From a virus, in IMG/VR virus record IMGVR_UViG_3300020428_000054, positions 1 through 30,332 of that record: 30,332 nucleotides of DNA. One strand, written 5' to 3'. Shown in pieces: positions 5,406-25,012 of this stretch (the stretch's first letter is position 1; each line of letters starts with the position of its first letter). The position numbers were made by a program, and so were the translations under genes. The notes beneath the pieces are model-generated. The model did not search any database, was not told the DNA's origin, and saw nothing but the letters and a program-made list of their open reading frames with translations.

Positions 5406-5961
5406 ATCTACGTCTACTAGGAAACCTAGGACTCGCAAAACTACAGCAACTAAAACCCCTGTGACTAAACCAAGGACGGTGACAGTTAAGAAAAAAGAAC
5501 TGCCACCTAATCCTTTGGTACATGAACTATTAGAAGCTGTTGATTCTGAAAGAGTTAAAGCGAAGAAAGTAAATCTACTCCGACAACATGGGGATGATTC
5601 TTTTAAAATGGTAATGATTTGGAACTTTGATCCAAGTGTAGTATCTGTATTACCTGAAGGTGGTGTTCCATACCAACCTGTAGATACAGCTGAACTTGCA
5701 GATAAGGACAAAGGAGTTCCATCCAGAACTACGATTCGTAACTGTGCAAATCAGTTCTATCGTTTTGTTAAAGGTGGTGATGACCAACTCAATAAGATAA
5801 AGAGAGAAACTATCTTTATTAATTTGTTAGAGACTCTTCCTCAAGCAGAGGCTGAGATTCTTATTCTTGCAAAGGATAAGGCTTTGGGAACCAAGTATGG
5901 TATTACTCAGGATCTAGTTACTGCAGCATGGCCAGAAATCACATGGGGGAACCGCAGTTGA
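5374..5961 (+). CDS. DUF6433-type protein with basic N-terminal tail
   Basis: 195 residues from ATG 5374, chosen over TTG 5365 because AGG at 5361-5363 sits ten bases before 5374 and is too close to 5365. The first ~45 residues are a Lys/Thr/Arg-rich tail (TTAKKTTKSKSTSTRKPRT), as in histone H1 or other DNA-binding tails. The rest matches the cyanophage DUF6433 pattern: KVNLLRQHGDDSFK, IWNFDPSVVSVLPEG, FYRFVKGGDD, ETLPQAEAEILILAKDKAL. Function unknown; the tail suggests nucleic-acid contact. It overlaps both neighbours. Confidence 0.75.
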   Translation: MTTAKKTTKSKSTSTRKPRTRKTTATKTPVTKPRTVTVKKKELPPNPLVHELLEAVDSERVKAKKVNLLRQHGDDSFKMVMIWNFDPSVVSVLPEGGVPYQPVDTAELADKDKGVPSRTTIRNCANQFYRFVKGGDDQLNKIKRETIFINLLETLPQAEAEILILAKDKALGTKYGITQDLVTAAWPEITWGNRS

Positions 5962-7091: not shown

Positions 7092-7801
7092 ACGTACAAT
7101 TAGTTAATGTCACTCCTGATGCGGAGAAGACTATGGCATATATTGCCAGAGTATCTAATCCCAATAATCAGGACAATGAAAAATTTGCTGGACTGTTAAA
7201 TTACTGTATCAATCATCAGCATTGGTCTGTATTTGAACAGTCTTCTATGACTTTAGAGATCGAGACTACTCGTGCCATTGCTGCACAGATACTACGTCAT
7301 AGGTCTTTTACTTTTCAAGAATTTAGTCAGAGATATGCTGATAGTTCAGCATTGGGTAAGATCCCATTGCCTGATCTTAGGAGACAGGATACAAAGAATC
7401 GTCAAAACTCGACAGACGATTTGGATCCTTTTATTAGACAGACTATAGAAAAACAAATAGTAACTTTGTTTAGTTCTTGTGAGGCATTATATGAACAGAT
7501 GCTTAAGTCTGGTGTTGCAAAGGAATGTGCTAGGATGGTTCTACCTCTCGCCACACCGACTAGAATATACATGACTGGTTCATGTCGTTCTTGGATCCAT
7601 TATATCTCTCTGAGGACTGCCAACGGTACTCAGAAGGAACATATGGACATTGCGAATGCTTGTAAAGATGTATTCGTTGGTCAGTTTCCCGTTGTCTCTG
7701 AAGCCCTTGGATGGGAACGAGATCTTGTTCAAGATTTAGTTGAGAACGTAAAAGAGGCTGCTGAGAAGGTAAAAAAAGTCATGGAATCTGATGAAACCTG
7801 A
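7088..7801 (+). CDS. thyX: Flavin-dependent thymidylate synthase
   Basis: 237 residues. Makes dTMP from dUMP with methylenetetrahydrofolate and FAD/NADPH, supplying thymidine for this AT-rich phage. The ThyX motif is present at residues 70-83 ([14 protein letters not shown]), with Thr in place of the first Ser of the textbook RHRxxS form. The dUMP-activating arginine region follows ([15 protein letters not shown]149), then SWIHYISLR. Length is normal for the family. It is coupled by ATGA to the 53-residue gene upstream and overlaps the following oxygenase gene by 11 bases. Confidence 0.95.
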
Positions 7802-8291
7802 GATAATTGATAATTTTTTAGATCATCGAGAGTTTGATTATGTTAAAAATGCTTTCAGTAATCTAGAATACAGTCCTATCCCAGGCGCTTCTGGAGAGGA
7901 AACAGAAATTCTTCATTGGAATTATTATTCTGTTAAAACGATCTATCTGAATGACGAACCAGTTGATGAGTCTTGGGGTGTCATTAGAGACGTTTTTCTT
8001 CCTAAATTCCATTTAGCATGTCAGTATAAGACTATGCTTAGGGTTAAAGTAAACTTTTATCCTTATTGTGAAACTTTTCACAAGCATCCCTATCATACTG
8101 ACCAAGATTTCAGTCATCAGGGCGCTATTTTTGCATTGAATACCTGTAACGGCTTTACAGAATTTGAAGATGGTACTAAAATAGATAGTGTTGAGAATAG
8201 ATTATTTTTATTCGATCCTAGTGTTAAACATCGTTCCACTAATACTACGGATGCTATGGGACGATTTAATATCAACTTTAATTTTTTCTAA
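7791..8291 (+). CDS. 2-oxoglutarate/Fe(II)-dependent oxygenase
   Basis: 166 residues. Same fold and core as the protein at 6443-6928. Facial triad: H102 and D104 (YHTDQD), H147 (VKHRST); likely 2-oxoglutarate arginine R158 (GRFNINF). [18 protein letters not shown] is the signature shared with its paralogue. It starts inside the last 11 bases of thyX, so the pair flank the nucleotide gene. The substrate is unknown; modified nucleotides or proteins are both possible. Confidence 0.85.
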
Positions 8292-15366: not shown

Positions 15367-16419
15367 ATGGCAGGTCAACAATCACGTTACTTTAAACCAA
15401 GTGATTTAGTAGCCAGAACTACAAGTTCCGATCTGGAGCCTGGGTATGAGAACATATTGGAAGATAATTCTGTAAATCAAGCTGATAAATTTGTCTCTTT
15501 ATTTTATAATAAGGATTCTTACAGGGAATTACAGAGTTTCCAAGAAGCTTTGGGTGCTCCTTCGTTATCTAACTTCTTCAAGATAACAATGGATATTGGT
15601 TCTGAACCTCCAGAACCTATAAGACAGTTTCCTGCCGATTCATCAGCAGGACAACAAATTACTTCTGATAAAAGAAAAGCACAAGGTTTGAATCAATGGT
15701 TGACTAGTGCTGGAGTATTGGGAACAGATGATCCTAAACAAAGGTATGAGTTGTTATGTAATCAGGCTATGTTGCCTGGAACATCTATGAATGTTTCTCA
15801 GGAAATAGGTAGTAGACAGGGAATTACAGAAAGATTTGCAACACAGAGACAGTATACAGATATATCTATAGGTTTCTATGTATCTTCTGATTATAAGATT
15901 CTGAGACTATTTCAAGAGTGGATGAATTTTATGAATCCATTATATGTCGGTCAAGAGGGAGTAACACCTGATATGGCATTTCCTGGCGGTTATCCAAGTA
16001 ATGATGAGAGTTATGCATATCACAGGTTTAGATATCCTAGTCAATATAAAAAGAATCTTGCAGTTACTAAGTTTGAAAAGAATCTAGGAACTGGTGTTGA
16101 TGGTGGTAGATATAATATTTCTTCTGTGGGAAGAGCAGGAGAATCTTATACACCTGATGCTATTACTTATGTTTTTGTAAATGCATTTCCTACATCTATA
16201 CAGGACATTGCTTTAAATTATCAGGCTGGACAAATTTTGGAATGTCAAGTAGAATTTACCTATGATAGGTATTATATTGTTAATCATCTTGGCGATGCTG
16301 CTAAACCTCCAAATAATCAGGGAGGACAACTAACTTCAGGTTCGGATAGACAAGGATTACCTAATCAGCAAGGAAACAAGAGCAGCGGAAGATTCTTACA
16401 AAAGTTAAACGCCTCGTAA
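15367..16419 (+). CDS. 54: Baseplate tail-tube initiator gp54
   Basis: 350 residues (T4: 320). Binds gp48 and starts tail-tube polymerisation. Recognisable stretches: GAPSLSNFFKITMDIGS near the N-terminus, YELLCNQAMLPGTSM, TERFATQRQYTDISIGFYV, KILRLFQEWMNFMNP and, near the end, TYVFVNAFPTSIQDIALNY with ECQVEFTYDRYYI. The C-terminus is a low-complexity Gly/Gln tail. It is divergent from gp4; I see no clear + strand late motif or strong ribosome site before it. Confidence 0.88.
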   Translation: MAGQQSRYFKPSDLVARTTSSDLEPGYENILEDNSVNQADKFVSLFYNKDSYRELQSFQEALGAPSLSNFFKITMDIGSEPPEPIRQFPADSSAGQQITSDKRKAQGLNQWLTSAGVLGTDDPKQRYELLCNQAMLPGTSMNVSQEIGSRQGITERFATQRQYTDISIGFYVSSDYKILRLFQEWMNFMNPLYVGQEGVTPDMAFPGGYPSNDESYAYHRFRYPSQYKKNLAVTKFEKNLGTGVDGGRYNISSVGRAGESYTPDAITYVFVNAFPTSIQDIALNYQAGQILECQVEFTYDRYYIVNHLGDAAKPPNNQGGQLTSGSDRQGLPNQQGNKSSGRFLQKLNAS

Positions 16420-16453: not shown

Positions 16454-17173
16454 ATGCCTTTACCAAAAATCCATACGGCTGAGTATGAGTTGAAATTACC
16501 TTCAAATGGAAAAACTATAAAATATAGACCATTTCTGGTAAAAGAAGAAAAGATTCTTATACTTGCACTAGAGACCGAAGATCAAAAACAAATAACCAAC
16601 GCTGTTAAACAAGTTCTAAAGAACTGTGTTATTACTAGGGGTATTAAAGTTGAAAACTTACCAAGTTTTGACATAGAATATCTCTTTTTGAATATTCGTG
16701 GCAAATCAGTGGGTGAAACAATTGATCTCCTTGTTACATGTGGTGACGATGGCGAAACAGAAGTCGCTGTTGGTGTTGCTATTGATGATATACAAGTAAC
16801 AAAGAATGAGGATCACACTCCAGACGTACAATTAGATGATGATTATAGTGTGAGGATGAAGTATCCTTCAATGAGTCAATTTATAGAGACTAACTTTAAT
16901 CAAGAAGGTGAGGATGCAGTTGATCAGTCATTTGAAATCATTGCTTCATGTATTGACAGTGTTTATAATGAGTCTGATGTCTTTGCAGCTTCTGACTGTA
17001 CTAAGAAAGAATTAAAAGAATGGGTAGAGTCTCTTACTTCTGCACAGTTTCAAAAGATCGAAGAATTCTTTGAGACAATGCCTAAGTTGACTCATACTCT
17101 TGAGGTCACTAATCCCAAAACTAAGAAAAAGAATACTGTTGTACTGGAGGGGCTAACAGATTTTTTCGGTTAA
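16454..17173 (+). CDS. 26: gp26 family baseplate/tail assembly protein
   Basis: 239 residues (T4: 208). Member of the T4 baseplate gp26 family. Typical stretches: YELKLPSNGKTIKYRPFLVK, KEEKILILALE, FDIEYLFLNIRGKSVGE, then MKYPSMSQF and CIDSVYNESDVFAASDCTKK, LTSAQFQKIEEFFETMPKL. T4 gp26 was long called a hub protein but is absent from the mature hub; a chaperone role fits better. Its last codons contain an in-register T TTT TTC slippery heptamer, and the next gene begins two bases after its stop. Confidence 0.85.
   Translation: MPLPKIHTAEYELKLPSNGKTIKYRPFLVKEEKILILALETEDQKQITNAVKQVLKNCVITRGIKVENLPSFDIEYLFLNIRGKSVGETIDLLVTCGDDGETEVAVGVAIDDIQVTKNEDHTPDVQLDDDYSVRMKYPSMSQFIETNFNQEGEDAVDQSFEIIASCIDSVYNESDVFAASDCTKKELKEWVESLTSAQFQKIEEFFETMPKLTHTLEVTNPKTKKKNTVVLEGLTDFFG
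17161..17167 (+). promoter_or_regulatory. Putative -1 ribosomal frameshift site T TTT TTC
   Basis: The heptamer TTTTTTC is read by gp26 as gaT TTT TTC, the X XXY YYZ register needed for -1 slippage. After the slip, reading continues as CGG TTA AGT ATG into the next small gene without a stop, passing the gp26 TAA at 17171-17173. Its place, end of the gene before a small gene and then the tape measure, matches G/GT tail chaperone frameshift sites. Confidence 0.55.
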
Positions 17174-17175
17174 GT

Positions 17176-17364
17176 ATGTCTCATATTGATCTTGAGACAT
17201 ACTTCAGAATTAATTTTGCTCTCATGCAGTACCATAAATATTCATTATGGGATATAGAAAATATGCCTCCGTGGGAACGAGACATCTATGTTGGACTCCT
17301 TAGATTACATATTGAGGAAGAAAACCTAAAACAAAAGCAACGAGAAGCACAGCTTAATGGCTAA
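17176..17364 (+). CDS. Small tail-assembly protein (T-like or gp51-like)
   Basis: 62 residues. The core YHKYSLWDIENMPPWERDIYVG followed by a Glu-rich helix (EEENLKQKQ) resembles the short hub-assembly or tail-chaperone proteins found after gp26 in T4-like phages; I cannot separate gp51-like from T-domain-like by eye. ATG 17176 lies two bases after the gp26 stop, and its frame is open upstream through the slippery site. It may therefore be made alone, as a gp26 fusion, or both. It overlaps the tape-measure gene by 8 bases. Confidence 0.7.
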   Translation: MSHIDLETYFRINFALMQYHKYSLWDIENMPPWERDIYVGLLRLHIEEENLKQKQREAQLNG

Positions 17365-19096
17365 ATTTTCATCTAAAATGTTTAAAGCACCCAAAGTTGG
17401 GAAGGGTGTGTCTAGCGTTAAGAAGAAGAGTAGCCTCCTTGGGAAGAAAGGGAGTAGGAAGAGCGTATATGGTGGTGTAGGTGGAGCCCCAAAGGGTTCG
17501 ATAAAAGGTAAGAATATATTAAAGGGAACTGGTAAGAAGATAGGGCCTATCAGACCAGACCTTAAAAAGGGTGGTATAAGGAAGATTAATAAACTGGTAG
17601 AGACTAAAGTTCAGAACCTTGTTCCAAAACTATCACAAAAGATTGAAGCCAAAGTAGATTCCTTTGATCCTAGTAAGTTCATGGGTAAGATCTTTGATGG
17701 TGGATTGGATTCACTGAGAGGATTTGGATCTAGTCTTGATGGAATGAAAGGATCTATGCAGGGTGCAGTAGATTTCCTTAATAAGGCAACTGAAGTTGCA
17801 AGTACGTTTATAACAAAATTAGCAAGGGCTAAACAGAAGAAAGGTGGTGGACTTATAGGAACATTATTCAAAGGTCTTGCTCTTGCTGGAGTTGCTGCTC
17901 TTGCTGCACCTCATATAGCCAAGGTAGCATTATTTGGTGGTGCAGTAGCTGCTGGAAAGGGATTGTGGAAGAAGGGTATTGATTTTATAAAGGGTAGATT
18001 TAAGAAGAAGAAAAAAGAGAAGAAGAAAAAAGAATCTAAAGCTAAGAAACAGAGAAAGAATCTCTTTAAAGGTGTATTGGAGAAGTTCAATAATACCTTA
18101 GATTTCTTGAACCCTTTAAACAAAATGAAGAAAGGGAAGAAAGAGGTTGATACTCATTCGCAAAAAGATATCTTTAAGAGTGGGCATAAACAGGATATGC
18201 AGGGTAATAGGACAGATGATTTAACTGTCTATGATTCTGATAAATCTGATCAAGTCTTTACGTTAAAGATTGATTCTAAGGATGGAAAGGTTATTAATGG
18301 GAATGAACTTCAACAAGAGATATTAGATAAAAAGAAAGAACATACTACACTGAGAAGGAAAGTTAATAATAGGGATGATGAATCTATTGAAGAAATTGAA
18401 GAGACTGATAGGATGGAGAGCAGACTGGAGGAATTGGAGAATCAACTTGAAGATTTAATGATGCAAGAGGGATCTGGTGCTACCAAATCCGACTTAGTGA
18501 AAGGTAAATCAGAACAACAAGCTTCTGGTGTTGAAGGTATGGTTCAGAAGGGTGAACAAGGAGAACAAGGTAAAGAAGGTAAGAAAGGTGGATTGGGTGG
18601 TTTCATACAGAATACTACTAAGAGTGTTAAGAATGTTGCTGGAAAGATTGTTAAGTCTACTCCACAGTATAAGTTGATTCAGATGGTTAAAGAGAACAGA
18701 GAGAAGATTCAAAAAGGTGCTGTGGGTGGTGCTAAGGGTATGTTTAATCAACTTCCACAAGTTAAAGCAGCAAAGTGGGTAGGTGGAAAAGTAAAAGGTG
18801 CAGCTGGTTGGCTTGGTAAAGGACTAAGAGGTATGGTTGATTCTGCTCTTGGATTTAGAAAGGATAATGCGAACGCAATATCTCAACCAGCTAAGAAAGG
18901 AGGTGCAGATGGTGGAGAAGGTGGTATAGTTCCAATAAAGATAGGTAAACGTAAGGACTCTAAGGGAGGGCAGTCACAACCACAAACTGTACTTAAGGAT
19001 CCAGCAAACAAAGTTCCTTCTTTGTTATCAATGGATAGGAGGAATCTCCATACCCCTTATGCCAAGTCTACTTTTAATATAGTTGATGCATTGTAA
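17357..19096 (+). CDS. Tape-measure-like tail protein (gp29 position)
   Basis: 579 residues, close to T4 gp29 (590), which sets tail length. The N-terminal 75 residues are very basic and Gly-rich (KKKSSLLGKKG, SIKGKNILKGTG). Helical segments lead into a hydrophobic block at about 164-201 (KKGGGLIGTLFKGLALAGVA) like tape-measure membrane segments. Poly-Lys/Glu stretches, an acidic coiled coil (RMESRLEELENQLEDLM, about 350-370) and a second Gly-rich basic half follow. Assignment rests on position, length and composition, not on clear gp29 identity. Confidence 0.6.
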   Translation: MAKFSSKMFKAPKVGKGVSSVKKKSSLLGKKGSRKSVYGGVGGAPKGSIKGKNILKGTGKKIGPIRPDLKKGGIRKINKLVETKVQNLVPKLSQKIEAKVDSFDPSKFMGKIFDGGLDSLRGFGSSLDGMKGSMQGAVDFLNKATEVASTFITKLARAKQKKGGGLIGTLFKGLALAGVAALAAPHIAKVALFGGAVAAGKGLWKKGIDFIKGRFKKKKKEKKKKESKAKKQRKNLFKGVLEKFNNTLDFLNPLNKMKKGKKEVDTHSQKDIFKSGHKQDMQGNRTDDLTVYDSDKSDQVFTLKIDSKDGKVINGNELQQEILDKKKEHTTLRRKVNNRDDESIEEIEETDRMESRLEELENQLEDLMMQEGSGATKSDLVKGKSEQQASGVEGMVQKGEQGEQGKEGKKGGLGGFIQNTTKSVKNVAGKIVKSTPQYKLIQMVKENREKIQKGAVGGAKGMFNQLPQVKAAKWVGGKVKGAAGWLGKGLRGMVDSALGFRKDNANAISQPAKKGGADGGEGGIVPIKIGKRKDSKGGQSQPQTVLKDPANKVPSLLSMDRRNLHTPYAKSTFNIVDAL

Positions 19097-20775
19097 TGAA
19101 GACTTCGATATCCACATTAAAAGTTAATCAGAAAGCTCAGAAGTCTGTTGATACCGCTGAAAGTAGTATCAATAGATTTAAAAGGTTTTTGTCTAGTCGT
19201 AAAGTAGGAAATGATATTCCTCAGAATTCTGAAATACAGAGGGCACAGAATTTTATAACTAAGTTTGAACCTGTTGCTAAGGGTGGTGGCCTCATGGGTA
19301 ATCTCATGAAGGGTGCTGGTGCTTTAATATTACTTCCTATGTTACTTGCTAAGGGAGCAATGGCTGGGCCAATGGATGTGACTTCACATATGATGGGTGC
19401 TTATGGTGGTGATAAGGATGCAGTTCAGAAAGATGTACAAAAGGCACAACAAACAAAGGATAAAGCTAAAGATGATTTAGATAAAACTACTGAGTCTGGT
19501 AAGGATATTAGTAAGAGTACCGTAGAAAATGTCAAGAATATAGACAAAGATAAGAAACAAGGTAAGTTAAAACCAGAAGATACACCTTCAGATGTTGAAG
19601 AGTCTCAAGAGGCCTTATCACAGGAAAGTCCTGAGAAGATAGAGGCTATGTCTGGAACCAGTGATGTTGGTGAACTTGATGTAACTGTTAAAGATACTAA
19701 TAGGTTTGCTGAATTAATTGCTAGATTCGAGAAGTTGACCAAGGCAGGATCTTTCATGGAAGGCAAACCAGAGGTAGTTGGTGGTGGGCCTGGCCAGAAA
19801 GTAAAACGAATGGGTGCTGGGTTGTTAGATGCACTGACATTCAATGCATTTGATTTTGATAAGAAGAATAAAAAGAGGAAAGAAGGTAAAGATGAGGAGG
19901 TTACCGAGGTTCCTATAAAGATAACCAAGGCATCACCTCAAGAAGATATGATGGGTCAGAAGAAACCTACTTCTACAGGATCTATGGATACTGAGAGTGA
20001 GGACTTTGCTGCTTTAACTGCGGTTTCTGCTTTGGAAGGTGGAGATTCTCAATCAAGAGCAGATGTTGCACAGTCAATCTATAATAGACATGCTGATGGA
20101 TATGTGCCTGGTGGTAGTATTAAAGATGTAGTTACTGCTGATGGTCAATATCAACCTGCATATAAGGATCCTAATGTATCCGAAGGGCCTGGTACAAAGA
20201 CATCTAAGGAGTTTAAGAATATTACAGACAGAAAGAGTGCAGTAGTGGCAATGATGTCTTATTATGAGAGGAGAGGACAAGATGTAACTAGGAAACAAAT
20301 GGAGGAATTATATGATAAGACTGCAGCAGATTTACAGAATCCTGAATTACAGTCAGAGGCTGCAAAACATGTTGGTGGTAGAACAGAGTTTCTTGGTGGT
20401 AAAGTAGAGGGTAGTGATGTTGTGGATAGGGGTGGATATGAAGATAATGCTTTCTTCCAAGAGTATGGGTCTGGAAAACAAATGGAAAGAGGTGCTGTTG
20501 ATAATCCTTTGTTGACGAGTGATGCATCTCAGGTTGAAGGAAGATCTATAGATAAGTCAGCACCAGAGCAATATCCAGAATATGATGTTGCACAAGGAGG
20601 TGGAGGAGGACAACCTACTATTCTTGCACTTCCACCAGAGGATGCTCCATCACCAAAACCGACACCAAGTATGCCTCAACAAGCACAACCACAATCACCA
20701 GAATTTATTCCTTTAGGTGAGGATTCAGCAACCACTTTAGCTATGATGCAAATACAAGGATTAGGAGCTTCATAA
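19096..20775 (+). CDS. Tail protein with SleB-like cell-wall hydrolase domain
   Basis: 559 residues. The N-terminal part repeats the tape-measure style: a helix, then KGGGLMGNLMKGAG opening a hydrophobic block (about 62-90). A charged linker follows. Residues about 303-400 resemble SleB/cell-wall hydrolase domains: AVSALEGGDSQSRADVAQ, then SIYNRHADG, SIKDVVTADGQYQPAY. The likely catalytic acid is E314. The C-terminus is Pro/Gln-rich. It probably cuts peptidoglycan during DNA injection, replacing the missing gp5 lysozyme domain. The start shares one base with the previous stop. Confidence 0.65.
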   Translation: MKTSISTLKVNQKAQKSVDTAESSINRFKRFLSSRKVGNDIPQNSEIQRAQNFITKFEPVAKGGGLMGNLMKGAGALILLPMLLAKGAMAGPMDVTSHMMGAYGGDKDAVQKDVQKAQQTKDKAKDDLDKTTESGKDISKSTVENVKNIDKDKKQGKLKPEDTPSDVEESQEALSQESPEKIEAMSGTSDVGELDVTVKDTNRFAELIARFEKLTKAGSFMEGKPEVVGGGPGQKVKRMGAGLLDALTFNAFDFDKKNKKRKEGKDEEVTEVPIKITKASPQEDMMGQKKPTSTGSMDTESEDFAALTAVSALEGGDSQSRADVAQSIYNRHADGYVPGGSIKDVVTADGQYQPAYKDPNVSEGPGTKTSKEFKNITDRKSAVVAMMSYYERRGQDVTRKQMEELYDKTAADLQNPELQSEAAKHVGGRTEFLGGKVEGSDVVDRGGYEDNAFFQEYGSGKQMERGAVDNPLLTSDASQVEGRSIDKSAPEQYPEYDVAQGGGGGQPTILALPPEDAPSPKPTPSMPQQAQPQSPEFIPLGEDSATTLAMMQIQGLGAS

Positions 20776-22204: not shown

Positions 22205-22432
22205 ATGGAAAGTATAGAACAACATATCGCCAAGGACAAAGAGATCCTTGACAATCCTCAGACAAATCCTCAAACGAGGAGACATATTGAGGAAGAACTT
22301 CATGATTTAGTTGAATACGAAGAACATCATCATGACGAGATAGTTGCAGGAGATCATCACGATCCTAATTGCATCGAACTCTTTTGCGACCAGCATCCAG
22401 ACGAGCCAGAGTGCTTGATTTATGACGATTAA
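22205..22432 (+). CDS. Conserved small acidic His-rich protein
   Basis: 75 residues. Two helices (MESIEQHIAKDKEILDN and RRHIEEELHDLVEYEEHHHD) precede a compact end with CDQHPDEPECLIYDD. The HH-rich stretch and two cysteines could bind a metal, but this is a guess. I recall this pattern in other cyanomyovirus tail modules, between the hub and gp5-like genes. Ribosome site GGAG at 22194-22197. It could be a small structural or assembly protein. Confidence 0.68.
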   Translation: MESIEQHIAKDKEILDNPQTNPQTRRHIEEELHDLVEYEEHHHDEIVAGDHHDPNCIELFCDQHPDEPECLIYDD

Positions 22433-22438
22433 TGAATA

Positions 22439-25012
22439 ATGTTAGACAGTGCCCTATTAAAGACCAATTTTATTGGCCGAGATGGTTTTGTATGGTGGAT
22501 AGGCAGAGTTGCCCCACCTAAAGTTTGGCGTGACGAAGCGACAGACACTGACGCTGGATGGGCATTTAGATGTAGAGTTAGAATTATAGGTTATCATCCA
22601 TTTGATGATAGTATATTAGCAGACGAAGATTTACCTTGGTCACATGTTCTGGTTGATGCTACCTCTGGTAGTGGACAGGCATGTTTAGGTGAAAGTTCTA
22701 GAATGGTAGGAGGAGAAACAGTCTTCGGTTTCTTCTTGGATGGTGAAGAAGCACAACAGCCAGTCATCTTTGGTGCATTGGCTAGGAATGTAAATCCATT
22801 GGGGCCTAAAAACTCCGATGGATTTTTAATTCAACAAGGGCCTACGAACTTTAATGACAGAGATAAAACTCAGAGAGAAAATGCTTTTGGTATTGGTAGT
22901 GGAAGAGAGTCGGGTGCAGAGGGACTTACCACGCAACCATTACCAGATGCAAAAACAGCAGGAACGCCATCACAAAACGCTACAAATAAAGTTGGTGAAG
23001 AAAAGAAAATAAAGAAATCTGATGGATCTGAGGAGAAGGGAGAACGAGCAGGAGGAAGAGAAGGTATTAGTAAAGCCAGAGCATCAGATGTTGCCTTTGC
23101 AAATATAAGTTTAGGCCCTCACACAAGAAATAATGCATGTGAGAATGATGCCCTTAGTGATATTACACATGTTATAGGAAGTTTCCTCAAGACAGTAAAT
23201 TCTCTTACAGAATATGCTGGTGTCTATATTGATACTGCAAGGAATATGATAAAGGATATTAATAAGATAATTGGTAAGGCTGGTCGTTTGATTACTGGAC
23301 TTGTCAAACAGATTATTAATACACTTAGAGATAAGATATTAGGTTTACTTGGAAAGAGATTCAGAGATTTTATTGGGTTAATAGTTCCAGAACCACAAAA
23401 ATCTCCAGTAGTAAATGCTTTCAAGAGGATAATGGATATTATCTTCTGTATCTTTGATAAACTTGGTATTGATCTTGGTAAGAATATCAAGGATATGCTG
23501 AAGGATATGGTAGGTAAGTCATTAAACAATACTGCTTGCGCTGTGGAACAGGCAGTTGGTGCATTGATGGCAGATGTTAATGATAAAATCAGTGAAGGTT
23601 TAAGACCAATTACAATGGGATTAGATTGGTTGACTGGTGCTATAGGTGGTATTGGTAGTTTACTGGGTAAAGTATCATCATATATTGATATGTTACTTTC
23701 ATTCTTGGCTTGTGATAATCTACAATGTAAGGAATATGAAGATTGGTCACAAGGAATGGGCTTAACTCAGAAACCTCAAGTGAGTTTTGCTGGTATGTTG
23801 GGCAGTATGGATACAATTAATAATTTAGATCAGGCTGCAAATTTAGGTATTAAGGATAGGTTCTCACTCTTAAGTTTAATGGGTGCTGGAGTTCCTGAAT
23901 TATTTGATTGTAATGAGAAAACCAGTAGTCCTAAGAATCAGGATGATCTGGGAGATTCCATTCCGCCAGGATTTATATGGGAAGATTGTATCCCTCCTAA
24001 AGTAGAGGTTCATGGAGATGGTACTAAGACTGCTGTTCTTCTTCCTATAGTATCATCTGTTAATGGTAGTATATTAACATTAGAAATTTTGGATGCAGGA
24101 TTTGGATATACAGAACCACCATTTATTGCTCTTATTGATAAGACTCGTCATGGTGGTGGAGCCAAAGCACAAGCAATATTAGATAGTAGTGGTCGTATTG
24201 TTGACATATACATGATTACTAATGGATCTGGATATTGTCAGGCAACCAATGTAGTTCCTCCAAAATTCCCTGTTACTGAAGGGCCTGAAGTTATTGAAGG
24301 AACACAAGATGTTGCTCCATATATTACATTTACAACTCCTGCTGATGATGCAGTTGGAGTTCAAACTGCCGTAAATCTATCAGTTACTTTCAATGAACCA
24401 GTATTGAAGGGTGCAGGTGATATTACACTCACAGAGTCAATAACCAATGCGACTCATGAGAAGATACCTGTACGAGATTCTAGAATAACTTTCTTATCTG
24501 ATAGGATTGTACAGATAAATCCTAGAAATGATCTTAAACCAAATACAGAATATTTTGTCTCAATGACAGAGGGTTCATTTTTAGATATGAATAATAACCA
24601 GTTTGCTGGTATTGCAAAGACCGATACTTATAACTTTACAACCAGAGGAATTTCTGGTATTGGTAGTGAGGCTGTTGGTATTGTGACAACTCTTATTCCA
24701 TATAGACCTGGCATTGGATATACAGATGGTGATATAGGTCAGGTGGGTGATTGTTACTTCAATCTATTATTGACTCCTGCTGGTTCTGTTGTTGGAGTTC
24801 GAGATATTGCTTGTAAAGACAAACATAAAGTGACTCCAAAGGTCACAATAAATACTAAGACTGGTACTGGGGCTCAATTAATTCCTGTGGTATCATATAG
24901 TCCTGATTACGTTGCTGATGTTGGAGAAAAACCAGATAGAAATAGGGTATTGGTTATTGATGTTATTGATTGTGTTGGTAAACCACTTACAGGTAGAGGG
25001 GTAACATCTTAA
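22439..25012 (+). CDS. 5: gp5-like baseplate hub protein lacking the lysozyme domain
   Basis: 857 residues. Residues about 8-116 form the gp5-type OB domain: NFIGRDGFVWWIGRV, FRCRVRIIGYHPFDDS, DEDLPWSHVL, then VFGFFLDGEEAQQPVIFGA. A long helical middle (about 225-430) with amphipathic repeats follows. GxGY repeats (DAGFGYTEPP, NGSGYCQ, PGIGYTDG) occur near 540-600 and 755. A Big_5/SbsA-type Ig domain lies at about 627-735 (TPADDAVGVQTAVNLSVTF). The T4 lysozyme domain and C-terminal beta-helix are absent; the next gene supplies a needle-like repeat. Confidence 0.8.
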   Translation: MLDSALLKTNFIGRDGFVWWIGRVAPPKVWRDEATDTDAGWAFRCRVRIIGYHPFDDSILADEDLPWSHVLVDATSGSGQACLGESSRMVGGETVFGFFLDGEEAQQPVIFGALARNVNPLGPKNSDGFLIQQGPTNFNDRDKTQRENAFGIGSGRESGAEGLTTQPLPDAKTAGTPSQNATNKVGEEKKIKKSDGSEEKGERAGGREGISKARASDVAFANISLGPHTRNNACENDALSDITHVIGSFLKTVNSLTEYAGVYIDTARNMIKDINKIIGKAGRLITGLVKQIINTLRDKILGLLGKRFRDFIGLIVPEPQKSPVVNAFKRIMDIIFCIFDKLGIDLGKNIKDMLKDMVGKSLNNTACAVEQAVGALMADVNDKISEGLRPITMGLDWLTGAIGGIGSLLGKVSSYIDMLLSFLACDNLQCKEYEDWSQGMGLTQKPQVSFAGMLGSMDTINNLDQAANLGIKDRFSLLSLMGAGVPELFDCNEKTSSPKNQDDLGDSIPPGFIWEDCIPPKVEVHGDGTKTAVLLPIVSSVNGSILTLEILDAGFGYTEPPFIALIDKTRHGGGAKAQAILDSSGRIVDIYMITNGSGYCQATNVVPPKFPVTEGPEVIEGTQDVAPYITFTTPADDAVGVQTAVNLSVTFNEPVLKGAGDITLTESITNATHEKIPVRDSRITFLSDRIVQINPRNDLKPNTEYFVSMTEGSFLDMNNNQFAGIAKTDTYNFTTRGISGIGSEAVGIVTTLIPYRPGIGYTDGDIGQVGDCYFNLLLTPAGSVVGVRDIACKDKHKVTPKVTINTKTGTGAQLIPVVSYSPDYVADVGEKPDRNRVLVIDVIDCVGKPLTGRGVTS

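Follow-up and report, generated by a model that had tools for sequence, protein, structure and literature searches.

A programmed -1 ribosomal frameshift near the 3' end of the gp26-type gene of this marine cyanophage very probably yields two forms of a tail assembly chaperone from a single gene. The window analysed here is an entire virus record of 30,332 bases, and the reading is built on a slippery heptamer, the open frame that follows it, their conservation at the level of single codons, relatives that keep the downstream domain but have no start codon for it, and the likeness of the N-terminal domain to solved tail assembly chaperones. A first-pass annotation had proposed both the frameshift and its analogy with lambda G/GT, and the conservation, the start-less relatives and the fold likeness support the two proposals at the level of sequence.

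We infer that ribosomes do slip at this site, at a rate low enough for the majority to terminate at 17171 and release gp26 as the short form (TAC-N, 239 aa). Others, fewer in number and delayed by an upstream Shine-Dalgarno (SD)-like element, GGAGGGG, and in this clade also by a downstream hairpin, would shift back by one base on T TTT TTC and then read CGG TTA AGT ATG and onwards, giving the long form (TAC-NC). By analogy with lambda G/GT, the short form would coat the tape measure protein, and the extra domain of the long form would recruit the tail tube protein.

The probable slip site and its conservation

The heptamer is read in the gp26 register as X XXY YYZ, two codons 5' of the stop, the gene ending GAT TTT TTC GGT TAA. 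Beyond it, the -1 frame has no stop from CGG (17167-17169) until the TAA at 17362-17364, a run of 65 codons that passes through the small ORF listed in Table 1. The window thus reads as the first-pass annotation had it, both for the position and register of the heptamer and for an open frame adding about 65 residues across the gp26 stop. The fusion is predicted to be 238 + 65 = 303 residues long with the junction peptide NTVVLEGLTDFFR, and the zero frame ends in DFFG; a small-ORF product begun at its ATG would have the N-terminus (M)SHIDLETYFR.

Table 1. Features of the gp26 region, in positions of the window.
Feature	Position	Strand	Basis
Tail tube protein, neighbour upstream	15367..16419	+	phrog_45 (E 9e-33), PF23849 (E 2.9e-12)
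gp26-type gene, probable TAC-N (short tail assembly chaperone form), 239 aa	16454..17173	+	PF12322, phrog_150, AlphaFold2 model aligned to 2ob9 and 3klu
SD-like GGAGGGG, 8 nt 5' of the heptamer, likely 5' stimulator	17146..17152	+	Alignment, counts of SD-like 4-mers, Glu codon bias
Slippery heptamer T TTT TTC	17161..17167	+	Register and conservation
-1 frame extension, putative C-terminal domain TAC-C, 65 codons and stop	17167..17364	+	Open frame; phrog_634 (E 9.4e-26, ATG-started part)
Perfect 12-bp hairpin, likely 3' stimulator, with the ATG of the small ORF in its stem	17172..17204 (17172-17183 with 17193-17204)	+	Folding
Small ORF by gene-finder convention, from ATG 17176; gp51 or hypothetical in relatives	17176..17364	+	ORF list, annotation of relatives
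579-aa gene, tape-measure position	17357..19096	+	Position only, no family match above cut-off

Heptamers of the XXXYYYZ type occur in frame 34 times among the 33 ATG-started ORFs of at least 100 aa on both strands of the window, not all of these ORFs being genes. For three of the 34 the distance to the stop is no more than 30 nt, and two (at 5883 and 17161) have a -1 frame reaching at least 30 codons beyond it; the one at 17161 is the only heptamer to combine both properties. A second in-frame T TTT TTC is found at 8282-8288, 7 nt 5' of the stop of the ORF at 7791-8291, where the -1 frame runs on for only about 7 codons more.

For the comparison, 319 sequences were assembled, namely the window and 318 loci taken from its nearest relatives, four further scans and 14 named phages. 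Four of these have no gp26 ORF (L210, L212, L225 and L237, in which the matches stop where the available DNA ends or shortly before), leaving 315. A heptamer with six T residues (T6) lies near the stop in 311 of the 315, as TTTTTTC in 301 and TTTTTTT in 10, and because it is so widely kept, a chance origin of the site is excluded; the 311 loci are not independent, since one contig can yield several (L032, L137) and L229 may repeat HTVC008M. The four sequences lacking it are Vibrio K357 (L090), T4 (L092), phiMAM1 (L093) and a locus whose reading frame ends early (L230). The -1 frame is open in 311/311, and all 300 loci in which its end is present run for 55-64 codons beyond the stop. An alignment of gp26 ends had been suggested in the first-pass annotation as a check, with loss of the heptamer or the frame in close relatives as the outcome that would tell against slippage; no such loss was found, GAT TTT TTC being unchanged in 80/80 of the nearest IMG/VR relatives (71-96% identity), among which the stop is TAA, TAG or TGA and the adjoining codons vary.

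The same picture emerges from individual codons. Within the clade, 76 of 82 rows cover the full stretch and give 59 distinct sequences. The longest stretch without any variation among these covers columns -12 to -3, and GAT, TTT and TTC are constant throughout; three single codons elsewhere, among 50, likewise have zero third-base entropy. Codon counts over the larger sample used 310 rows (the 315 less the four without a heptamer and less one filtered row). The first slip codon is TTT in all 310 and the second TTC in 300 and TTT in 10; at most other invariant Phe columns both codons occur, for instance TTC 189/TTT 121 and TTT 182/TTC 127, and two further Phe columns share the strong preference for TTT (300 to 9 and 273 to 25). 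Such freezing of the slip codons reads as selection on the nucleotides themselves, beyond any need for Phe-Phe.

A run of at least six T in 311/315 would also be what is expected if the two forms arose from transcriptional rather than ribosomal slippage. As the run is short, closes with C in 300/310 rows and is surrounded by likely ribosomal stimulators, we give this reading the least credence of those weighed here.

More broadly, the site was followed in 24 named phage genomes, hand-picked from the search results. The T6 heptamer and the open -1 domain occur together in 18 of them: seven kyanophages of cyanobacteria, Pelagibacter HTVC008M, Caulobacter Cr30, Aeromonas Aeh1, 65, Ahp1 and AS-yj, Vibrio K567, XZ1 and 6E35.1a, Stenotrophomonas YB07 and Rhizobium RL38J1. 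The heptamer is TTTTTTT in Cr30 and HTVC008M and TTTTTTG in RL38J1. The T6 heptamer is absent from the gp26 end of T4, Salmonella STML-198, Klebsiella phi1_146055, Klebsiella HMGUkp1, Vibrio K357 and Serratia phiMAM1. In the case of K357 (L090 3160-3396) and phiMAM1 (L093 3184-3411), a TAC-C-like open -1 domain nevertheless follows the gp26 homologue, with matches to phrog_634 (E 0.039 and 8.5e-8, respectively) that are bettered by those to phrog_9633; despite this domain, neither phage has an X XXY YYZ heptamer, a point against the frameshift reading, the corresponding sequences being ACTTTTC and GGTTTTC.

Elements likely to stimulate slippage

Flanking elements were compared in 146 representatives, chosen by 4-mer overlap from the heptamer-bearing rows and hence uninformative on the frequency of the heptamer. 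An SD-like 4-mer is found 6-16 nt 5' of the heptamer in 141/146, against 8.8% of 6570 control windows. The Glu codon inside the element is GAG in 122 and GAA in 12, a preference that is reversed elsewhere in the gene (GAG 840, GAA 2017).

Downstream of the heptamer, the hairpin of the window folds with -15.7 kcal/mol (z -4.28), and 0/200 shuffles are as stable; S-SSM7, whose host is Synechococcus WH8109, has the same heptamer and hairpin as the window. Over 143 of the 146 representatives, the 50 nt 3' of the heptamer have a mean folding energy of -12.0 kcal/mol versus -6.0 in control windows, with 208/1856 control windows folding as well as the site; z is below -2 in 98/143 representatives, as judged against mononucleotide shuffles. 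Folding downstream is weak in some lineages (L211, L181 and L086).

The stem was further compared in 145 representatives, 83 of which, diverse in sequence, were taken for alignment, covariation and RNAalifold. Its position recurs with differing sequence in different clades, and the covariation score of the 83 is 0.212, versus 0.152 for shuffled alignments and at most 0.148 for slid controls. Pairs changed on both sides are not in excess among the 83, as 112/500 shuffles reach the same number. A universal hairpin is rejected, RNAalifold giving no consensus structure and no pairs on these sequences and only 59.6% of cells pairing. The hairpin, strong in the clade of the window, is a clade-level feature, and what holds generally is the heptamer together with the upstream element.

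Slippage or re-initiation at the small ORF

In the window, an ATG lies only two bases past the gp26 stop, and the first ATG of the -1 frame is at this same position (+5, counted from the first base of the stop) in 98/146 representatives; it is at +2 in 4, +14 in 6, +20 in 1 and at least +23 in 37. The small ORF is, moreover, annotated as a gene of its own in S-SSM7, P-SSM2 and ACG-2014f. Such an arrangement would fit a separate gene (gp51) translated from ATG 17176 by translational coupling or re-initiation, with the heptamer incidental, a reading we consider very improbable. It leaves the frozen Phe codons unexplained, and the ATG of the window would be buried in the hairpin stem. No SD-like 4-mer is found 5-13 nt 5' of the ATG at +5 in any of the 98 representatives that have it. 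Above all, the frame and its domain are intact in loci that offer no such start. Counting ATG, GTG and TTG as start codons (ATT, CTG and the like being left out), 61/311 loci have none in the -1 frame between 10 nt 5' and 15 nt 3' of the stop, and 20/146 representatives have none up to +20 nt, the first lying at +50 or beyond. In those 20, the conserved block starts ahead of any of these codons, and the -1 peptide directly after the slip, for instance FRIALLHNTLENYFQTNFALMHHHKW in Syn19, has the same motifs as in the other representatives. Because so many relatives have no ATG, GTG or TTG near the stop, re-initiation cannot be the shared route, and as the only route it is rejected.

The junction itself points the same way, towards slippage. 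In 59/59 distinct clade sequences the -1 frame reads R-L-S/G-M across it, and the base changes seen here (CGC, CGG, CGT) leave the -1 residue as it is and alter that of the zero frame. The ATG is likewise invariant in 59/59, and is kept despite the variation of the preceding codon between Ser and Gly. This constancy would suit a third product made in addition to the short and the frameshifted long form, namely a free C-terminal domain started at ATG 17176 in phages that have it. As the same ATG also serves as a codon of the -1 frame and as part of the stem, and is preceded by no SD-like 4-mer in the 98 representatives with an ATG at +5, we regard three products as improbable. The first-pass annotation had left room for re-initiation at 17176: from these comparisons it is at most an addition to slippage, and could supply such an extra product in phages like that of the window; the start-less relatives speak against it as a shared mechanism.

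With frameshifting as the preferred mechanism, the burial of the ATG in the stem invites a tentative suggestion, one we would ourselves rate as somewhat unlikely. The 12-bp hairpin may boost slippage specifically in this clade and at the same time hide the start of the small ORF, such that one RNA element would both set the ratio of short to long form and forbid free TAC-C. In other lineages the ratio would be set differently; that of T4 would have dispensed with the need by duplication into genes 26 and 51. If this is true, the kyanovirus series represents a natural experiment in setting and rewiring the chaperone ratio.

The two routes predict different peptides. For the S-SSM7 fusion, the predicted tryptic peptides are ENTVVLEGLADFFR and LSMSHINLETYFR, and the ATG-started small product of S-SSM7 would begin (M)SHINLETYFR. 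The small domain is unannotated in S-CAM1, ACG-2014b and Aeh1 and is started at an internal Met in Syn19, so that the records of these four phages leave out a conserved domain in whole or in part.

The two probable chaperone forms and their known counterparts

The gp26 of the window belongs to PF12322, the T4 baseplate protein family that includes gp26 (E 1.8e-77, 260.4 bits against a curated cut-off of 24.5), and to phrog_150 (E 1.9e-83). The small ORF weakly matches the last columns of phrog_150 (E 0.0005), which hints that some members of that family are natural fusions. The AlphaFold2 model of gp26 (pLDDT 85.6) aligns within its first 96 residues with solved structures, over residues 1-86 with the HK97 tail assembly chaperone (TAC) 2ob9 and over 1-88 with YqbN (3klu); YqbN and 3fgx we take to be prophage chaperone relatives. 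VIA-align gives Z 7.8 (rmsd 4.1, 86 aligned) for 3fgx, 7.7 (4.1, 84) for 2ob9, 7.2 (4.2, 86) for 3klu and 5.2 (4.6, 84) for 5ir0, the next structure falling to 2.6; values of Z below 8 can mean a merely common arrangement, and the Foldseek match to 2ob9 is not significant (E 2.0). The gp26 of HTVC008M weakly matches the Pfam family Phage_TAC_3 (E 0.018, below the cut-off of that family). A profile search of solved structures gave two weak matches only, both to MtrB; no NCBIfam family matched the window proteins searched, and megablast of gp26 against phage records gave no match, near-identical records possibly being missing from that set.

In gene order, the tail tube gene stands upstream of gp26 and a gene in the tape-measure position downstream, the latter so named by position only, as it has no match above cut-off in PHROGs, Pfam or NCBIfam. 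In Cr30 and HTVC008M, annotated tape measure genes lie downstream, with one more small gene between. Elsewhere in the tail region of the window, searches of PHROGs and NCBIfam with a 559-aa gene (19096-20775), which follows the tape-measure position and precedes the next tail protein, gave no match, and Pfam gave nothing above its cut-off; a CP12-like gene (22205-22432; PF02672, E 3.1e-10) is found within the tail gene block, followed by a gp5-like hub protein (22439-25012) with a bacterial Ig-like domain (Big_5, E 1.4e-14). Taking sequence, model and analogy together, the best reading is that gp26 is TAC-N and that the slip would make TAC-NC, as in lambda G/GT. The labels of cyanophage gp26 and 'gp51' would accordingly move from 'baseplate hub' towards tail assembly chaperone.

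In T4 the two forms appear to be encoded separately. T4 gp51 matches phrog_150 over residues 3-248, phrog_634 over 147-246, and PF12322, and resembles T4 gp26 in BLASTP (E 1e-5). A 40-sequence profile (A2) aligned clearly with T4 gp26 in hhalign (98%) and weakly with the single T4 gp51 sequence (probability 14%, E 0.0019), a result that counts against the link to gp51; the link therefore rests on the phrog_150, phrog_634 and PF12322 matches and on BLASTP. By these matches, T4 gp51 is the full-length long form, a natural in-frame fusion of the N-terminal part and the C-terminal domain, and gp26 is the short form, made from a separate gene. In Klebsiella HMGUkp1 (L328 1501-2794), gp51 and gp26 stand in tandem, overlapping on one strand, unlike the divergent pair of T4, an arrangement that may be what is left of a tandem duplication.

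Passages of a T4 review (PMC3004832) call T4 gp26 and gp51 hub assembly chaperones and describe gp51 as essential yet absent from the final particle. Genetic work cited in those passages places gp26 inside the T4 hub (PMC3004832), a placement that a transient chaperone does not need and hence a point against the chaperone reading. The data given here, gathered separately, support the view of T4 genes 26 and 51 as a short and a long form split between two genes, a view relevant to the long-standing problem of the role of gp51.

Frameshifting of this kind has precedents. The 2022 study of Vladimirov et al. is said to have found it conserved in several groups of T4-like phages, T4 using genes 26 and 51. 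In excerpts of a 2016 review, G-T frameshifting is called widely conserved among long-tailed phages 'except T4' (PMC5009743). Parts of later papers credit Vladimirov et al. 2022 with identifying the TAC genes of T4-like phages (PMC12846349, PMC10885494), describe poly-T slippery sites as known in their TAC-N genes (PMC12846349), and mention T4-like phages that instead have a longer fusion gene beside the short one (PMC10885494). The suggestion in the first-pass annotation that a slip in a T4-type gp26 may be a new instance is thus preceded by that study and, in these excerpts, by the papers citing it. In the literature searched, mainly open-access and covered by titles and the openings of abstracts, no description of this site in cyanophages, together with the element upstream of it, the hairpin and the lineages that have no start codon, was found among the matches listed. 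The site is a well-supported case of the phage tail-chaperone frameshift already reported for T4-like phages, and is not new in kind because their TAC genes and poly-T slippery sites have been reported.

As far as the T4-like TACs of Vladimirov et al. 2022 are represented in the citing excerpts, the picture here is the same, with gp51 long and gp26 short. The TACs of Vandenendeviridae and Andersonviridae, as sketched in part of PMC12846349, likewise have a -1 frame that is open and conserved, with a poly-T motif at the TAC-N 3' end, but the motif, GTTTTT, differs from T TTT TTC. The roles of lambda G and GT with the tape measure and tail tube proteins are outlined in a portion of PMC5009743. 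The site analysed here shares with lambda gpG/gpGT a short gene ahead of the gene in the tape-measure position, a -1 slip site near its stop and a C-terminal extension in the -1 frame. The two differ in their slippery sequence. That of lambda is G GGA AAG, and that of the window is T TTT TTC.
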